Source: Tetrahymena thermophila SB210 (lineage: Eukaryota; Ciliophora; Oligohymenophorea; Hymenostomatida; Tetrahymenidae). From it: a DNA stretch of 64,000 bases. The position numbers were made by a program, and so were the translations under genes. Positions 11,738 to 39,595 of the stretch are shown here, in pieces; the first letter of the stretch is position 1; each line of letters begins with the position of its first letter. The stretch is from positions 62,001-126,000 of the forward strand of contig NW_002475963.1 in assembly GCF_000189635.1 (NCBI RefSeq), read 5' to 3'. A model generated the notes under the pieces. That model did not search any database, was not told the DNA's origin, and was given only the letters and a program-made list of their open reading frames with translations.

Positions 11738-13988
11738 TCATAGGAGTTAAAGCTCAAAAGATAATCTTAATGGATATTCCATGCCATTTGGAAAAGTTAT
11801 TTTAAAATATTAGAATGCATCTGTTTGATTAGTAGGAGCTTTCAACTCTAGCTTAATTTCATCTATTTCATCATATTTTAAAGGATTTATTCTCTACTAA
11901 ACGTGTTTAAATGATCCGTTACCTTTAATTACTGTGCCTTCTGGGAACTGAATTTAGCTTGAATTTTTTATCATAAAAGTTACTGTAAACTACTATCCCT
12001 TAGCTACTCTGATAGTTTGGTTTTAAGAGAGATTTATAATTTTTATTTAACTTGTTAAATTTTCACTACTATTTTGATTCGAACTATTTGAACTAAAATT
12101 TGTTTAATTTATTTAGTTATTCAACTAAAATAGAGCACTATTTCTATTTTAAAATAAATCAATCAATATTAAATTAGACGTTATTTAAATAATATTTTCC
12201 ATTTTTAAATGAGCAAAACAAATAATATTTTATTACATTTATGTTTTTAAAATGTTTCATAAATTCTCATGAAAAGAAATTAAACTTTTGAAAAGCATTT
12301 TAAAGTTTTTTAATTAAAATTAATATTATTGAAATAAAGCTTTTTACATATTAGACTAAGGTATGTTACTCTGATTATACGTTTGGCTAGTTACTTAATT
12401 AGTGAACATTTCGTTGAAGAAGTGTTCTTTTGTGTAAGGCAGTGGAATATTAAGGTTTTAGCTTTGCTAAAGGGGATTGAAAAATTAATTTTACATTTGT
12501 TGCTATTAGGGCTATTATTAAAACTAATAAAATTAAGACTGTTGTTATCTCTAAGCTGATGGCATAGTTTATGCAAGAGAAGAGATATTTGATTTTTACA
12601 AATTTTAGAAATTAAATACACCAGATTAAACATTACTATTAGATGTGAGGAGAGGAGTTTTTATTGCAGATTGTGTAGCTGATGAAATATTACCAAAAGG
12701 ACCTGTTGTATTTCTTACAATTTACGAAAAAGGGAAACTAACATTGTTTGGGGCTGCAAAATTTTCTTATGAAGCTAAGTTGTTTCCCAAGTTATTCATC
12801 ATTTAATTGTTAAAAAGTCTTTGGGATTTATTTAATTTATTGCTTGTAACATTAGTAACATTTTTATACTTCATGAAAGGATGGTTATGGTCTCCACGCT
12901 TTTCACGTTAGCAGTTTTCACAATGGTCTGTATTTTTGCAGACCAAGCAGTGAAATCTAACATTTTCAATTTGCTCTCTGCAAATATTGCACTTATAATT
13001 GGATAAAACCTAAAATTATCATCAAAATAAATATAAATTATTATTACTTACTTAGATATATTTTGATAGAATTAAAACTTTTCATGTAAAAACTTTCTAA
13101 GTATTAATTTACTATGCTTTGACTAAGGTCATTTTTTTTTTATTGCTTAGGTTAGGGACTGGTGCTTCTTCTACTTGCTGCGTTTTACTGCTAAAGATAA
13201 GCAATGTGCTATTTTATTTTAATGTCATCTTCAATGTTATCTGGCTAAAGCTTGGGAAAGGTATTTAATATTTATCTCATGATTTCATAGTTTATGATGT
13301 TTTCTAAAAAATCCTAGTTTTTTATTTCTTAAAAAATTTCAGGAATTTCAGCTACTTCGTTAGACTAAGTGAGCTTTTCATTGCTTTTAGTAGTTAAAAT
13401 ATTAAGATTAGAGATACTTGCCTTTTTTATATTTCCATTAAAGTTGTTAGAATCATACTCTGAGCTTCTTTGTTTAGAATGTAACTAAGAAAGAACTATA
13501 CTAGGATTAACCATTGACAATTCGCTTGTTTCAATAATAGCTTCTGATGCATCGTATTTTTAATTTAAATTGGTTTACTGATTTTAAGTTTTTATGTTTT
13601 CATCTGGCTAAAATTCAAAACTTTCATTTACTTTTTAATAGTCTTCGAAGCAAGAATCTAAAATCTCTTTATTAGGGTTACTCACTTGAAGCTTTTAGTT
13701 ATCTAAGTAGACATGAATTGTTCCTGAATCTTAAATATGAGCTTTATGAATATAAGACTCGTAATCTTGCTGTTAATTTATATTTTCTTTACTATCTTTC
13801 TTTCCTTCTGATGAAGATTAAAGAGATATGATATACTCAGTGATATCAATATTAAGTAATTGATTCACTTAACTTTTAAAATTTTTAAAGCTTGAGTCCA
13901 AAGCATAGTTTTCAAGGCTGTTAACTACTTTATTATTTACTAAAAAATGAATTTATTTGAATTTTATATATTTTTCAAAATGCTGCAT
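11738..13988 (-). CDS. NBR1-like ZZ and FW-domain protein
   Basis: 647-residue protein assembled from three exons with introns 12144-12347 and 13010-13112; all phases agree. Residues 1-60 could be a degenerate PB1 fold, but this is weak. At about 297-340 there is a ZZ zinc finger: CNIC, then FHCLVCKNTDHCENC, then a paired-His end (GDHNHPF). A Gln/Asn/Ser-rich linker follows. The last 110 residues resemble the Ig-like FW domain of NBR1 (FPEGTVIKGNGSFKHV, KLELKAPTNQ, YFKITFPNGMEYPLRLSF). In animals, plants and fungi NBR1 is a selective-autophagy receptor with PB1-ZZ-FW order. ZZ followed by FW in one chain supports that assignment, although each domain is diverged. An alternative reading is two separate genes, with the FW part starting at an ATG at 12202, but exon phases favour one. 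Confidence 0.6.
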
Positions 13989-14547
13989 GTTTATTTATCA
14001 AGAAATCAATCAAACAAATAATCTATATTTAATTCTAACTTTGATTAAAAGATTTAATTTATTTTTAATTGTATAATTTTTTATTTTAGTAGTATCACTC
14101 ACTCACTATACAAGTCAAGTTTAGTTGATTATATCAAAAATTAATTAATAAATTAAATAAATAATTATTTATGCTGTAATTGTAATAAGTCTTCTTTATA
14201 ATCTTTGCTTTTTAAAGTATTAAAAATAGTCACAAATATTAATTGATCAGAAATCTATTTCAAATTTAAAAATATTCTTGCACTTTGAATAAGCAATTAA
14301 TTATATTATTACAAAAAATTTAACTATCTCAATTAAAATTATAATAATCTAAACAATTTATTTTATTAAGTAATACTTAATTGATATTTTTTAATTTTAA
14401 AAAAAAGTTCATTTAAATAAAAAAATATATCAATAAATATAAAAAAATTGGAGTTAGATTATTTGCAGGTTAAGCTTTTTAAAATATTTTTTAATTGTTT
14501 TTCCTTAAAGCTAAATACGAATTCAGTAAAAAATCAAATTTTTCACA

Positions 14548-14555
14548 GAATAAAC
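14548..14555. repeat. Left 8-bp target duplication
   Basis: GAATAAAC immediately before the G10 end of the mini-element; it is repeated exactly after the C10 end. Confidence 0.7.
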
Positions 14556-14668
14556 GGGGGGGGGGTAGATAGAAGGGATTGAGCTTTTTAATCCCTCTTA
14601 AATATTCAATTTGTCAAAAATGGAAGTTATAAGGGATCATGCCAATCCCCTCTATCTACCCCCCCCCC
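14556..14668. mobile_element. MITE-like element with G10/C10 termini
   Basis: A 113-bp element with terminal inverted repeats of about 26 bp. The left end reads G10 then TAGATAGAAGGGATTG; the right end is its inverse with one mismatch, ending in C10. It is flanked on both sides by the direct repeat GAATAAAC (14548-14555 and 14669-14676), as expected for an 8-bp target duplication. Inside, the word AGGGATT or its inverse recurs about four times (near 14573, 14590, 14632 and 14644), giving a nested hairpin and the look of subterminal transposase-binding sites. There is no coding capacity. Eight-base duplications are typical of hAT- and P-type DNA transposons; family assignment is inference. The G and C runs are extreme for an 80% AT genome. 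Confidence 0.75.
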
Positions 14669-14676
14669 GAATAAAC
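14669..14676. repeat. Right 8-bp target duplication
   Basis: GAATAAAC immediately after the C10 end, an exact direct copy of the left flank. Confidence 0.7.
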
Positions 14677-14917
14677 TATGTTTTAGTCTTTTAAATTATA
14701 TATTTTAATATTTAAATGAAAGTTAGAGTTTTTTACATTTTTTCAAATAAAAAAATTTTAGTTTTTTGTTAGGATTTTCTACTTTTTATTTTATTATTAT
14801 ATATGTTTTTAAAAAAATATTTTAGATAATATAATAAAAAATATTTTTGGTAGTCTTCTGTGATTAAGTTTATTTGTATTTTTGATTGCTATTTAATTTA
14901 ATAGTAATTTGATTTTG

Positions 14918-17900
14918 ATGAAGAAAAGTTAAGATAAGAAAATCTTTTATAATTTTCAGAAATTTAAAGCCATAAATTATAAGATTTGCAAATTATCAAA
15001 AATAAATAGATGATATTGATTATTTATCAATTATACTCATAATTTGCTTGATTTTAAAATATTATAAATAAAAAACAAAAGACAAGATTTTAATTGAAAT
15101 ATTTTAAAAGTAATATAGTAATGCACTAATAAAATACTAGCGTTAATATAAAATCATACTCAAAAAATTTAGATAATAATAAATAAAAATAAATTTGGTT
15201 TTTTAGCAAGAATGAATAATTTTAAGAAAACCATTTTTTTAATTCAGATTTAGTAAAAAAATTGCTAGATTATGAGTGGTCAAATAATGTCTTAAATTTA
15301 CACAATATCAAGAGATCCCTTCTTCTTATTTACAAAGAATTCGAATATGAATACTATAAAATGGAGGATTATGAAAGAGTTAAGCAAGAAACAAATCAAA
15401 TTTCTAATGAAGCAATTAAAGTATTGATAAAAATTTTGAAAAATAAAGGAATTAGAATGCTTGCTTATGATTCTACTGTGCCAGAAATATACAATTAAAT
15501 TGCATAGATTTCAGAAATGTTTTTATGCATCTTATATCAAGCTAAGATCTTAGAATGCTATAAGTTATGCATCTTTTAATCAAGCAATTCAACATAAATA
15601 GATTAATTAATGCAAAATGAAATTGAATAAAGTTTTTTACAGTAGCAATTTATTAAAATATTTCAAGAAAATGGAATAGTTCCAACTCACATAACATTTT
15701 ATTGCATTGAAAAAATTAAATTAGAAAATGCAGTTTAATATTTTTTATATTTTGATGTGGTTGAATAGTAAATTGCCAATTTGTTTCTTTAAAAATCTTT
15801 AAGTTTTGGTAGAAGATTATTTGATTGTTATCATAAATAATAAGAAACTATAATTCAAAAGATCATAAATTTTGCTATTTTCGATTAATAGGTTTTTTTC
15901 AGTTTAGCACAAAGATAATCTCCTGAAGGACAAAATGAATAAATTGTATACAAGATAGCAGGAATATGGCCTGATAACATAGATGAAGTGATGTCTGCAA
16001 AGATAAATGAGCTTTGTAAGTATTGATAAATAAATAAATTAAATATTTTCATTTTGAATTTGAGTTATTTTCTAAGTTTATTTGTTTGTTTACAAAATAA
16101 AACTGATAAAATTATTTTTAATAAAAAGTTTTAGACTATGGGAATTAATCAAGTGAAGATTTGAAAAATAATTTTTCAATCTAAATAAGTAAAGACACAA
16201 AAAATCTAAAAGAATAAGATTATATTGAAATCGATACAAAAGAATATAAATACTCTGTTAAGCTGTAGGTTTCATAAAATACTTAGTTTAGATACTATTC
16301 TTAAAACCTCTGCTAAAATTAGCTAGATTTTAGGTGTTTATAGCCATCTACAATACAAATTATTCTAGAATAATTATTCAATCCATCTTATTTTGAAGTC
16401 CCATCAAATTAAAGTGGGTCATTCATTAGCTCATAATAAAGTTATTTCAAAGAATTTTTGGATCAATTCTAATAAAGTTCAAATAGATAAAATCCCACAT
16501 AAGTTATTAATGAAAATAGAAGTTTTTTTCAAATCAATAATGATATTTTATAATGTGTGCTTTATATTGTGAAACTTTTTGGGTTATAGGATTTAGAAAG
16601 CATAAATATAAATAAAAAAAAGCAAAATAATGAAATAACTAAAGAGGAGCTAGATGAATACTATACAAATAAAAAGTATGAATTTATTGATTTTAATAAT
16701 TGTAGATTAAAGTATTGCTTGTCTATTTTCTATGAAACCTTTTCTGATTTACCAGTTATTACAGACTAAGAGCTATCAAATAAATTGTAATAGTAGTAAG
16801 AGATAGATAAGAAAAATTTTATAGAAAACTAATCTTTATAAAAAAGTAAAAAAAAAAAGTTTCATAAAGACAGAAGAATAAAGTAGATAGAATTAATAAA
16901 AAATGTATGTTTAAGTAGCTCCAAAGAATTGTACTTTTTACAAGAATACAATGAAATTGAGAATGTACTGAAATAAAATTAAAAATATTAAAATTTGTAA
17001 TAAGATGAGTTTAAGCTCATTTAAAATATTTTTATTCACATCTTTAGCATTTAAAAATGTAAAAATCTAATTTGGTGTAAAAAGATAACACTTCAGGGTT
17101 TTAATGGATAGAAACCTGATCAGGGTTAAGTATCTGAAAGAACCATGTAGTTTTTTTTATCTTAAACAAATGATGTTTAATACTAAAACTTAGATCACTA
17201 AATATAAATTTTTAAATATAAATTTAATGCTGAAAACGATAGCTGTTATATCTACTTTGATATTAAATCAAAACAATTAGTGAAGCACATTAATTCAATG
17301 ATCCAAAAAAATTAAATTCAAACCAATATATCTTTATTAGGAATAAAAACAATAATTCCAATAAGATATCTCAAATAGTAAAAAAATGAAATTATTAACC
17401 AAATAAAACCAGAAGATTAAACAAGATTTAGCATAACTTACTATACTAATCCTGTATTTTACTACGTTAAAGATAAAAAAAAGTAAGTTTATTGCTAAAT
17501 TATTGGTGAGAGGTAATTAATTTATTAATTTTATTATGATATTTTTATGATAGAGTTTTTATATATTTATAAATAAACAAATAAAATAATAGGCATGGAA
17601 ATAAGCTTTTAAACTAAAAAAGTGAGATAAAAAATGATTAATGCATAACATTCATGGAGGAGCATTCTCACTTATAAGGAGATACAAGCTACCTACGAGA
17701 TTTAATCGAACATCTAAATAGAAAGCATTATGATCAAGGGAGAAGCTAAAGTAAAAATCCTTAATTTGCGAGAAGCATTCTTTATTCCCCAGAATAAAAT
17801 AATCATATCAGTGAATTTTAATTACTTCATACATAAGAAATCTAAGGTTAAATAAAGCTTTTAAAGTACTATATTAAACCAATCATTAAAGATCTCACTT

Positions 17901-18244
17901 CATCCTATAAATTTTACGAGTTCAATAGCCAAGACATATATGATCCTGATTGGTGGCTAACTGGGTGGCCACTTTTATATAGAAGTGTTTTTGATATGGG
18001 AGATGATTAAGGGTATTTTATTTTTAGCGATGATCCCAATTATATCTTATAGCAAAGGCAAAAAGAGAAAAAGAGCAATGAAGAAATAGAAAATCCATTT
18101 TATTTTTATGTTTGCTCCATAGATCCTAGGTTTGATAACTTTTAGCTAATTGAATCGAATCACTATGCTAAGATCCCAAGTTATTACTGTAGAATAAGAT
18201 GTATCATATTTTCATAAAGATAAAATAGTTGTTCAATATTTTGA
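14918..18244 (+). CDS. Hypothetical ciliate protein, ~935 aa
   Basis: Large protein with no family I recognise. The body is secure: long open exons 15248-16015, 16135-17512 and 17593-18244 join in phase (introns 16016-16134 and 17513-17592) and end at TGA. The extreme 5' end is less certain. A 10-nt first exon at 14918-14927 joined to 15248 gives MKKNLVKKLLDYEWS and keeps phase, but another start is possible. The sequence is rich in Ile, Gln, Asn, Lys and Tyr. A Trp-rich segment near the C-terminus (DPDWWLTGWPLLYRSV) suggests a folded domain. No signal peptide, transmembrane run or catalytic motif is seen. Confidence 0.65.
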
Positions 18245-20382
18245 TTACTTTTATAAATCCTATTTGACTAAAATGAGGAATATGTTTTATTTATTTGTTT
18301 ATATTTCAAATTCATTTCTTAAATATTAAAATTTTTATTTAATATCTTTAAAAATTAATTAATTTTTTCAATAAAAAATATATTTTTAATGTTAATCATA
18401 TAAATATAATAATAAATTCTTTAAAATCATTTATGCTACTTTATTCAATTATTTTATGGATAACACAAAAATTAATTAGACCTTAACATATTTCAATCTA
18501 AAATAATTAATATTCAGACGGCAATTATATAAAGAAAAGTTTTCAATTTAAATTTTTAAAATTTTCAAAATTATTTAATTTATTTTTGGAAAATGCATTT
18601 AATAATTTAAAAAAAATTAAATTAAACTGTTCATCGAATTAATAAAGAGTATTTTTTAATTTAGTAGTTTTTTGAATAACAGATTAGTATATGAGAAATT
18701 TAATTTTTGAATAAAGATTTTGTTTATTTCCATTAATTATCAATTTAAATTTGCGGGAAAATAAAATTAAATTTAAGGGTTGTAATTAAATTAAATGAAA
18801 TTGAATATTTATTTATCTCATTAGGGTCTTATTAAATATTGTAGCGATAAAAATTAAAACATTCCAATAATTAATTAAATACAAATTAAATTTAGTTGTT
18901 AAATTCTTGTTTTTAGAATTGACTTGCATACTTTCTATTTATGTTTAGAGTAATTCAATTATTATTAAATTAATTTACTTTTTGTAAATAGACTTTTATA
19001 GAATAAAGAATTTTTTTAATATAATTTAGTTCAGAAAACAATTTTAATGAATATTTTCGAATTTAATTCTCATAATTTTTTATTCTTTCAAGAATTTACT
19101 AAATTCTAAGACTAAAAATGTGTATTTATGAATTTTTACCTTTAATTAATCTTATTTGGTATTATTGCTAATATAAATTCAAATTTTATTTCATAATATT
19201 TACTATATGCAAATAGCTGCAAATAAATAGGCCAGTGATTGCCAATGTTATATCTATAAATAAAGATAACCTATTTCTACTTTAATAAATTTATTCATCC
19301 TAAGAGAATATCAAAAAGACCGATTAAAGAAGGAGAGAAAAAATATTATTCATAAGTGGGGGAAACGCAGAGGAAAAAAAAATAAATAAGAATGGTATCA
19401 GAGAAAAATCAAAAATAAAAATTAAATTTCTTAATGAATTTCTTTTAATCAAAAATGAAGAGACAAAGTAAAATAAAAGAAAATTAATTAGAGCAAAATA
19501 CAGAGAGATGATTTTTTTTTTTAATGGGCAAAAATTAAATTCTGCAAGGGATAAACGTTTATTATCAGCTATTATTTGTTAATTTTTAATATAATTAGAA
19601 GAATATTAATAATTTTTCTTTGTATATCGAAATCTTGGGGTATGAAATAGAGCTGTTTTTAAATTATTCAAAAAAATATTCCTTTGATATTTTTATATTA
19701 AAGATTAATTATGCGCTTATTAGATATATTGATTGATTCACACTACTAAGTTAAGAGTTAGAAATTAAACTTAATCATATAAACTCCTTAAGATATACAG
19801 ACTCAAAAATGCATTGCACTAACACAAAGAATCTCTTCGAACTAAATTTGAAAGAGCGAAATGGAAATCTAAGGTTGAAAGCTACTAACTAGCAGAAGGT
19901 CAAACTATTCAATGAATAGAAGCGCGTGTTTGCCTATGTATTATTTATATATATTTTTTTAATTTTATCTATATTACAAATTGAAGATGATGTGATTTTT
20001 CTTTGACAATTAATATTTTTTGCTTAATGAATTGTATTTTGCGCAAAAATCTGTGATTTATTTCTTATTAGCGAAAAGGATAGCTCAAAATGAATGCAGA
20101 TTTAGGAGAAAGCGAAATATTTAAATAAGGGAAAATAATTGCTTAATTAAGAAGAAATAGCTAAGAAAATAATAATAATTATTATTATTATTATTAAGTA
20201 GCAAGAGGAAAACATTCATACATACATATATATACACACACATATATATATAAATAAATAAATAATTGAATTTTTTAATCTTGTAAACACGCAAAAAAAA
20301 AGTAATAAAAAAATACAAATACAAAACAATATATAAAGTAAAACAAAATTTAGAAGAAGAATAAACAACTCTAAACAACTAT
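18245..20382. other. Intergenic region / MYB 5' region
   Basis: Two kilobases of AT-rich DNA. The 3' half (from about 19320) turns purine-rich and somewhat less AT-rich, compatible with promoter and 5' UTR of the MYB gene. It includes a small open frame at 19809-20006 and dinucleotide/tetranucleotide repeats at about 20215-20265. Confidence 0.5.
19809..20006 (+). CDS. Candidate small ORF upstream of MYB
   Basis: Open frame of 65 residues from ATG to TGA (MHCTNTKNLFELNLKERNGN at the start) with a hydrophobic C-terminal segment (VLFIYIFLILSIL). Its first 110 bases are clearly richer in G+C than the surrounding spacer, which is unusual for non-transcribed DNA here. It could be a small membrane peptide gene, an upstream ORF or exon in the MYB leader, or chance. 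No homology recognised. Confidence 0.3.
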
Positions 20383-37517: not shown

Positions 37518-38308
37518 ATACTTATTAGATTAAGTTTTATATTAATTAGGTTATTGTCGTTTAAAGGTGGTGATTAAGGGTTCAATAAAAAATGAGTATG
37601 CAAATTTTGATTTTGGTTTTTATTTATTTAGTTAGTTAGTATGGTGAAATATAGACAGAAGGACAGTCAGAAAGAAAGATTGATAGACAGAAAGACTGGG
37701 AATAAGGATTACTAAAAAATCAAATAACTAAAATAAATAAGGTTAGTAAAGACATAAGTAATTAAATATAGAATGGCTTCTTTGAATGAAAAATCATTTA
37801 AAAAATGAATAGAGGAGATTAACGTAAGAAATAATAAGTGAAATTAAATTAATAGAATAAATAAAGAAAAAAATTATTACGCTTGTAATCTGAAAGTGTT
37901 TCTTTGTTTCTTAATTTAGTTTTTCTTGCTATTCTAAAATTAGTCTCAAATGAATAAATTGACTATTTAATTATTTATTTATTTAATTAATTAATATTTG
38001 CATAGAAAAGAAATAACAAAATTAATTCTTGTAGTTTGCATGAAATTTCTGCTGGCTAATCAAATACATATATGAATATAATTGATTAATTTTATATTTG
38101 CGAATAAAGATTATTTGTATAATTAATTAATTAAAGTAACTTTCAAATTTTTTTAGAAGAAAAAAAAAAATCAAAAACTAAAATCATAAACAATCAAATT
38201 ATCCGTCTCAGATTCTATTACACTTAGAATTATAAATTAAACTAAATAATTAAATATCTACTTCAAAAATTCAAACAGACAAAATTAAATAAACAAATAT
38301 ACAAATAA
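37518..38308. other. Intergenic region with GACA/GAAAG repeats
   Basis: AT-rich spacer with imperfect purine repeats at about 37650-37700 (GACAGAAGGACAGTCAG and similar). No gene recognised; the 3' part is the laforin-like gene's 5' flank. Confidence 0.55.
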
Positions 38309-39595
38309 ATGAATAATAATAATTACAATAATATTCATAGATACGATTTTAATATTGTTGAATTTAAAGTCGTTTGCAAAGTCGAATGGGGTTAGACTGT
38401 TGGTGTCATGGGAAATATCGCTAGCCTTGGTAATTGGGAAGATCAAGGTATTTTTCCTCTTACATGGACTGAAAATCACGTCTGGAAAGGCGAAATGTTA
38501 ATTATGCCTGGCTGCGAATAAAATTTTGAATGCAAATTTGTTATTTTCCACAAAGATGACAAAAACAATACAAACACTTTGATCGAAATGGAAAAAGGTG
38601 CTAACCGTTAATATAATCTTAATAACCCTGCTTAATTCATCACTGAGTAATAACAAGAATCTTAACAATCTACTCAAGACAATAAATTCATTATCAGTGA
38701 AATTTTTAATATGCGTAAAGTCACATTCTCAGTCTATTCTACTCCTAATAGCATTATTCACATCTCAGGAAACATTCCTTAATTCAAGGTTCCCTAATAA
38801 TTGTGCTACGAACAACAAATTCCTAGTATGAATTGCGATTAGCAATTATCTCTCTACTACCAAGATTTTTATGTTGATATGAGAGAAGATATGATGAGAT
38901 ATTATTATATTAAAAATTTCGTCTAAGTTGAACGTGGTATTGGTAGATACATTATTTTCAATAATCACATTACCAAGCCATTTGCTATTCAATATTCCCT
39001 CGCTATTCCCGAAGTATTTAAGGAGGAACTTTCCTTTGATAATATTACTGAAAACCTCTCTATTGGTTCATTTATAAACAGTGCCAATGACATTTCTTCT
39101 CTCCACAAACTCGGAGTTACTGCTATTGTTAATTTATAGACAAAACGTGACATGGAAAGAAAGTACGTAAATGCATAAGAAATCAGAAAAATCTGCAAAT
39201 CTAAAGGTATCTTATTCATCAATACTCCTATCCGTGATAATGATCCTGTTGACTACGTTCAACGTGCTCCTGAAGTTTTGGACATCATTGAAGATCTCTA
39301 CAAAGCTAATCATCACATTTATATCCACTGCACTGCTGGTATTGGCAGAGCTCCTCAAACTGCTATTCTTCACTTAGTCTTGCATCGTAATTACAAAATA
39401 AATGAAGCTTCCGAATTAATTTTTTCAAAAAGACCTGTTTCTTCTCCTAACAAAGAAGCTATCATATCAGTTTTAAAAATGCTTTCAGAAAGCTCCAGCG
39501 AAAGCACTTCTGATAGAAGTATCGATGAGGAAGAGGAAGACTATAGATCAGAGGAATTCTGCTCATCTAATCAAATATCTGCTAAAATAATGTGA
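38309..39595 (+). CDS. Laforin-like glucan phosphatase
   Basis: 428-residue, single-exon protein with the laforin domain order. Residues 10-125 form a CBM20 starch/glycogen-binding module: VMGNIASLGNWEDQG, a Trp in HVWKGEM, FECKFVIFHKD, and the closing EKGANRQYNL. The C-terminal half (about 235-395) is a dual-specificity phosphatase: LGVTAIVNLQTKRDME, then the general-acid loop IRDNDPVDY, and the Cys-x5-Arg loop HCTAGIGRAP with Cys341. The loop resembles that of plant SEX4 (HCTAGMGRAP), but the binding module is N-terminal as in laforin (EPM2A). Known family role: removal of phosphate from glycogen or starch to keep it soluble. A role in glycogen turnover in the cytosol is inferred. The tail is Ser/Glu-rich. 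Start is the first ATG, in a context of AT-rich leader. Confidence 0.92.

Follow-up and report, generated by a model that had tools for sequence, protein, structure and literature searches.

A 113-bp unit with facing G10 and C10 tips in Tetrahymena thermophila as the probable scar left in the macronucleus by excision of a germline DNA transposon

Why should a short unit with the ends of a transposon still be present in a somatic genome from which transposons are removed? This question is raised by a locus in a 64-kb window of the Tetrahymena thermophila SB210 assembly (the window being the whole stretch of 64,000 nucleotides analyzed), where a unit of 113 bp, at 14556-14668, is flanked flush outside both ends by 8-bp duplications. 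The order of tracts across the locus is GAATAAAC, G10, 93 bp, C10, and GAATAAAC, with AATAAAC directly 5′ of the G10 run. The 26-bp inverted ends differ at a single position (TAGATAGAAGGG versus TAGATAGAGGGG), the tips read G10 then TAGATAGA, and AGGGAT and ATCCCT words are present in both the left and right halves. An earlier note made from the letters alone had reported the G10/C10 ends, the 26-bp one-mismatch inverted repeat, and the perfect 8-bp duplication—all of which proved exact—as well as repeated subterminal words, which were confirmed in both halves. The features are as follows, named according to the reading argued for below.

14548-14555, no strand: left target-site duplication GAATAAAC, flush with the G run
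14556-14565, plus strand: left-end G10 tip, a proposed boundary (flanking regulatory) tract of an internal eliminated sequence (IES), with its G side toward the IES
14556-14581, plus strand: left terminal inverted repeat, 26 bp, one mismatch to the right one
14566-14612, plus strand: putative retained left element end, 47 nt, common to loci C24 (run at 104107) and C211 (run at 228035) and then diverging
14613-14614, no strand: inferred excision junction, 2 nt that could belong to either side, at which the germline would carry the IES; homology to other loci stops on both sides
14615-14658, minus strand: putative retained right element end, 44 nt, common to locus C17 (2019884-2019937) and then diverging
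14643-14668, minus strand: right terminal inverted repeat
14659-14668, minus strand: right-end C10 tip (reading G10 on the minus strand), the proposed second boundary tract, at an inner spacing of 93 bp
14669-14676, no strand: right target-site duplication GAATAAAC

The unit was found to be the sole case in the window of a 26-bp inverted repeat with at most one mismatch within 300 bp, and no such case was observed across 20 Markov simulations. Runs of G or C did not exceed 6 in any of 50 simulations. Identity between random 8-mer pairs 40-300 bp apart occurred at a frequency of 2.2e-4 (435/2,000,000). No ORF of at least 400 aa overlaps the unit, the closest being that at 16107-18710 (+); a stop-to-stop frame of 366 aa in the ciliate code (13951-15051, +) crosses it, as do shorter frames, and these are at most possibly coding.

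Searching the assembly (101 Mb, 445 contigs, with the ciliate code used for reading frames) with the whole unit showed that each of its ends recurs elsewhere. The left 57 bp, comprising the tract and 47 nt, was found at C24 and C211, each 96% identical (E 3e-19), and the right 54 bp was found at C17 with 91% identity. When up to three mismatches were allowed, pattern searches recovered the same loci for both halves, with the left-half pattern giving four additional places at three mismatches (two for the reversed control) and the right-half pattern giving no additional places assembly-wide. With up to two mismatches, the pattern of the terminal inverted repeat is at background (129 places versus 115 for the reversed control); solely the five exact places, two of which are the window unit itself, were used. 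A scan of viral contigs for the same repeat gave 0 matches. Thus, the further copies that the earlier note had proposed searching for do exist, as copies of the ends at other loci, and its provision that a lack of any other copy would favor a chance hairpin does not apply. The ends of the unit belong to a real dispersed element.

More detailed comparisons of these loci showed that the two halves of the unit are modular. Homology of the left end stops at nt 47 between the window and C24, at nt 47 between the window and C211, and at nt 48 between C24 and C211; that of the right end stops at nt 44 between the window and C17, with local alignments going no further. The other half of C24 does not align to the window, carries its own tract, CCACCCCC, and has an inner spacing of 91-94, and the other half of C17, which does not align to the window either, begins after AAAAAAGGAGGG at an inner spacing of 89. 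At C211, a weak TCCCTTCT is located about 91 nt from the start of the end sequence and is followed by a 100-N gap; the short stretch beside this gap has no second match anywhere in the genome and so points to no autonomous copy. No target duplication was found at C24, nor, on inspection by eye, at C17. Among the loci found, none shares sequence across the middle of the unit, each relative having one half only.

These observations bear on the possibility that the unit is a chance or functional hairpin—an RNA stem-loop, a terminator, or a source of small RNA—without any tie to transposition. The unit strand is indeed predicted to fold at -65.4 kcal/mol (z -7.9), far better than shuffled sequences, with 0/200 shuffles matching it. 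However, this fold is a consequence of the inverted repeat itself, and the flush 8-bp duplication, the solitary ends at C24, C211, and C17, and the modular halves would all be unexpected for such a hairpin, making this explanation exceedingly improbable.

Target-site duplications were examined in a two-ended set, defined by a G run of at least 7, a C run of at least 6, and an inner distance of 60-170, and consisting of 13 distinct loci among those extracted. At 7/13 of these loci, the runs directly abut an exact 8-bp duplication, as compared with 0/156 when flanks of different loci were paired as a control; an earlier, looser set gave 7/19 rows, in which four loci appear twice, with 1/342 in its control. 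The seven positives include one low-complexity case (L114, AATTTTTT), one across an N gap (L039), and two intact copies of the family designated F2 below. The loci without a flush 8-bp duplication are C10, a chimera; L122, with TTAA; L109, with a gap and TTAAA; L094, with TTAA on one side; L068, with none; and L147, where an 8-bp match (AACCTATT), read by eye, is offset by 3 nt. The earlier note's claim that the unit stems from a transposon and its 8-bp target duplication is therefore supported, by the dispersed ends and by exact 8-bp duplications in other G-tipped families; its description of the unit as a well-preserved mini-transposon is probably wrong, the relatives diverging past 44-48 nt and the 93-bp spacing fitting an excision scar. 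The unit reads better as the rejoined ends of a larger germline element that lost its interior.

With respect to such scars, the closest known systems are the IESs. As described in the parts of the sources covered here, the M-IES has A5G5 tracts 45-50 bp outside each end, with the G side toward the IES (PMC4780704), and across the genome, LIA3-affected IESs have inverted repeats rich in G at a distance of about 51 bp from their ends, with most of their junctions varying little (PMC6547420); a 2017 review, in the part covered, regards the determination of IES borders as unsettled (PMC5666084). From the published tract distances, the expected scar of a G-rich IES consists of two joined stretches of about 45-50 bp each between a G tract and a C tract, and the unit shows 47 + 2 + 44. 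As in Lia3-affected IESs, such as the M element, the G tracts in the window face each other as inverted repeats with the G strand toward the deletion (inner distance 93 bp), and the putative junction lies 47 and 44 nt from them, where the G-rich class has approximately 45-51 bp. Like these IESs, the sister family F4 varies by a few bp at its putative junction. The unit differs, however, in that its tracts form the tips of an insertion flanked by an 8-bp target duplication, and the boundary signal would thus coincide with a transposon end. Furthermore, the tract of the M element is A5G5, whereas that of the unit is a pure G10 after AATAAAC; since the exact A5G5 is absent, the unit can be placed in the broader G-rich class only.

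Retained termini have precedent, in that some curated transposable elements were reported to show a macronuclear retention bias for terminal regions, which was read as incomplete removal (Hamilton 2016, in the part covered; PMC5182062). The unit would be alike in the retention of transposon termini in the macronucleus, but the section of that paper on termini, as far as covered, mentions no G tract or fixed distance, whereas the retained sequence here stops 44-48 nt from the tract. The covered parts of PMC6547420 and of the Ltl1 paper (PMC6698652) speculate that boundary signals or regulators derive from transposons, whether from their ends or from other parts. No element whose tips are the tract appears in the parts covered of PMC5182062, PMC6698652, and PMC6547420; searches of the open literature—titles and abstract openings among the matches listed—yielded no description of G-tipped elements, and a search for four motif strings yielded no papers.

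Based on these comparisons, the 113-bp unit is very probably the scar that excision of a germline DNA transposon left in the macronucleus, with the G tips of the element as the boundary signal. In the proposed mechanism, a transposon with inverted G10 tips would have inserted in the micronucleus, generating the 8-bp duplication GAATAAAC. In the developing new macronucleus, heterochromatin guided by small RNA would mark the interior of the transposon for removal by the IES machinery, the facing G tracts would serve as the G-rich (Lia3-class) boundary signal of the host, and Tpb2 would cut about 44-47 bp inside each tract, so that both element ends and the duplication would remain, joined at approximately 14612-14615. 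The element would thereby confine elimination to itself, whether this property is selected or incidental. The insertion and the scar geometry are supported by the sequence comparisons, whereas we infer the excised germline interior and the action of Lia3 and Tpb2 by analogy with the IESs described above; the transposase that moved the element is likewise presumed.

A census of long G runs was used to place this geometry in the context of the genome. The assembly contains 116 runs of G≥9 on both strands, and the census covers 102 distinct runs of these, the window locus included. A C-rich tract, defined as at least 5 C in 7 with only C and T, was found 75-110 bp from the G run on the inner side of 21/102 runs and on the outer side of 0/102 (Fisher test, p = 3e-7, with gaps and double counting left in). 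The inner-side histogram shows nothing from 0 to 80 bp, and of the C-rich tracts on the outer side, 7 fall at 20-60 bp and 3 lie more than 140 bp away, with none at 60-140 bp. Four loci enter the 21 partnered rows from both ends, and 3 rows are sized by 100-N gaps, leaving 18 measurements at 15 distinct loci. The measured inner spacing at these 15 loci is 82-97 bp, with the window at 93; read from one side, the window shows a weaker extra tract at 80. Long G runs are rare and structured in this genome, both of which would be explained if transposon tips serve as boundary tracts. For 81/102 runs, copies of F2 and F4 among them, the inner side shows no C-rich tract at 75-110 bp. The more general proposal, in which all long G runs would be such scars, was rejected, given these partnerless runs, the different layout of F1, and the two intact F2 copies. 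Outward pairs, with a C run followed by a G run about 42-47 bp apart (C5:156145-156206, C168:114673-114735, and C169:104391-104455), were also noted, and apparently form a second discrete spacing class beside the inward class; in addition, TTGGGG repeats occur near a contig end (L075).

Single-linkage clustering of the 120 nt adjoining each run on its inner side, in which weak similarity joins some members, placed 60/102 runs in 8 clusters, and the number of pairs at the same threshold was 184 on the inner side versus 15 on the outer side. The family F4 (TCACAGCCGGGTG...) has its left end at five loci, and 9/10 of the pairwise comparisons between them stop at 44-53 nt. The tenth comparison is between the two-ended copies C91 and C439, whose left 45 nt and right 40 nt are the same in both and which show TA versus CCAG at the predicted junction, the sole other difference being one G in a run; within F4, 47-nt matches at 100% identity occur. 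The duplications of these two copies differ, being AAATAAAA (TTTTATTT on the other strand) at C91 and AAACTAAA at C439.

The family F2 (TCACAGCAGGGACCC...), a 12-run cluster, includes two copies, C396:10238-10377 and C188:2725-2865, that align over their full length of about 132 nt (inner distance 132-133) and are flanked by the duplications GTATTAAT and AAATATAA, respectively. These are evidently intact short elements kept whole in the macronuclear assembly, and short retained MITEs thus evidently occur in the macronucleus. At the other F2 loci compared with C396 as reference, homology is lost at 43-52 nt in 5/5. At C10, an F5 end faces an F2 end at an inner distance of 88 without a duplication, as expected if one deletion spans two elements.

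In light of the two intact F2 copies, the main rival explanation is that the window unit is itself an intact 113-bp non-autonomous element (MITE), inserted as such and kept whole because it is short. The perfect 8-bp duplication and the terminal inverted repeats would suit a MITE, as would the precedent of the F2 pair with its common interior and 8-bp duplications, for which reason this rival is retained. However, several copies sharing the full interior, as expected of a MITE, were found for the F2 copies C396 and C188 only. The three relatives of the window unit break at 47 or 44 nt, its middle matches no other locus found, its 93-bp inner spacing falls within the 82-97-bp range of other facing tracts, and the two-ended F4 copies differ at the same point, bar one G in a run. 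An intact MITE is thus distinctly unlikely.

Another explanation to be weighed is that assembly artefacts or homopolymer slippage create the G-run pairs, with the end families representing unrelated low-complexity matches. Several of the G-run loci, namely L039, L092, L109, L115, and C211, do lie beside N gaps. Against this explanation, however, stand the 57-bp matches at 96% to C24 and C211, the 47-nt matches at 100% in F4, the inner versus outer asymmetry of the C-rich tracts, and the duplications with their 0/156 control, and such artefacts are considered highly improbable.

Accordingly, interpretation as an excision scar draws on the shared dispersed ends, the homology break at 44-48 nt, the 82-97-bp spacing of the tracts, the 8-bp duplications, and the junction differences between C91 and C439 in the sister family. 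The points against it are the 81/102 runs without a partner, the two intact F2 copies, the absence of the exact A5, and the weakness of the partner tract at C211. Such an origin would account for the survival of some transposon ends in a soma from which transposons are eliminated.

Merlin and other transposons, like hAT elements, make target duplications of about 8 bp. The earlier note had called an 8-bp duplication diagnostic of hAT/P-type insertion, which goes too far given that other superfamilies also produce ~8 bp. The window unit resembles hAT-type and other 8-bp-duplication transposons and their MITEs in its terminal inverted repeats, the 8-bp target duplication GAATAAAC, and subterminal repeats, but differs in its G10 homopolymer tips, its absent interior, and the lack of a transposase linked to the ends. 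A domain search of the assembly detected seven hAT dimerisation-domain fragments (C46:63539, C112:137994, C184:1042138, C131:115117, C445:12206, C8:22042, and C31:37450) and one IS1595/Merlin-like fragment. The unit is not assigned to the hAT superfamily. It is also unlike piggyBac elements, having the 8-bp GAATAAAC in place of a TTAA target duplication.

TTAA-flanked ends are, by contrast, found in F3/F7 (TACGAAAA...), clusters with 10 runs in all (including L029, L046, L074, L079, L080, L094, and L120), where TTAA precedes 6/10 of the runs, as compared with 11/102 overall directly before the run. The sequences suggest that F3/F7 is a G-tipped family similar to piggyBac, with its two ends meeting in L094. 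The largest cluster, F1, contains 26 runs (including L030, L048, L078, L086, and L098), some of them joined by weak similarity, and in several members about 20 more nt (AAACTCCAGGAGTACTATAT) are conserved before divergence. The C-rich tract of F1 sits inside what we take to be a Tc1-like end (AATACTGTAAATCCTCATTAATT..., read inward). In its opposite strand orientation, F1 resembles the C-rich boundary class described in the part covered of PMC6547420.

These families may point to a wider arrangement, in which several unrelated germline transposon families—with 8-bp-duplication, TTAA, and Tc1-like ends—have the G/C boundary tract of the host built into their own termini at a constant position, which would make them self-delimiting, and in which G-rich IES boundaries generally descend from such ends. 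We hold this generalization to be about equally likely to be true or false. If it is true, then wherever self-delimiting transposons land, the host would excise the interior only, sparing the neighboring DNA. In the present data, transposon tips and proposed boundary tracts are the same bases at several insertions recognizable by their target duplications, and this coincidence makes the idea of a transposon origin directly testable with a germline assembly and LIA3-deletion data.

Of seven comparisons of ORFs from the window and the assembly, read in genetic code 6, with PDB sequences, five produced no match and two no near-identical chain. Elsewhere in the window, the ORF at 37790-39592 (+) was found to combine a CBM_20 (starch-binding) domain with a dual-specificity phosphatase domain, its best PDB matches being plant glucan phosphatases, followed by laforin.
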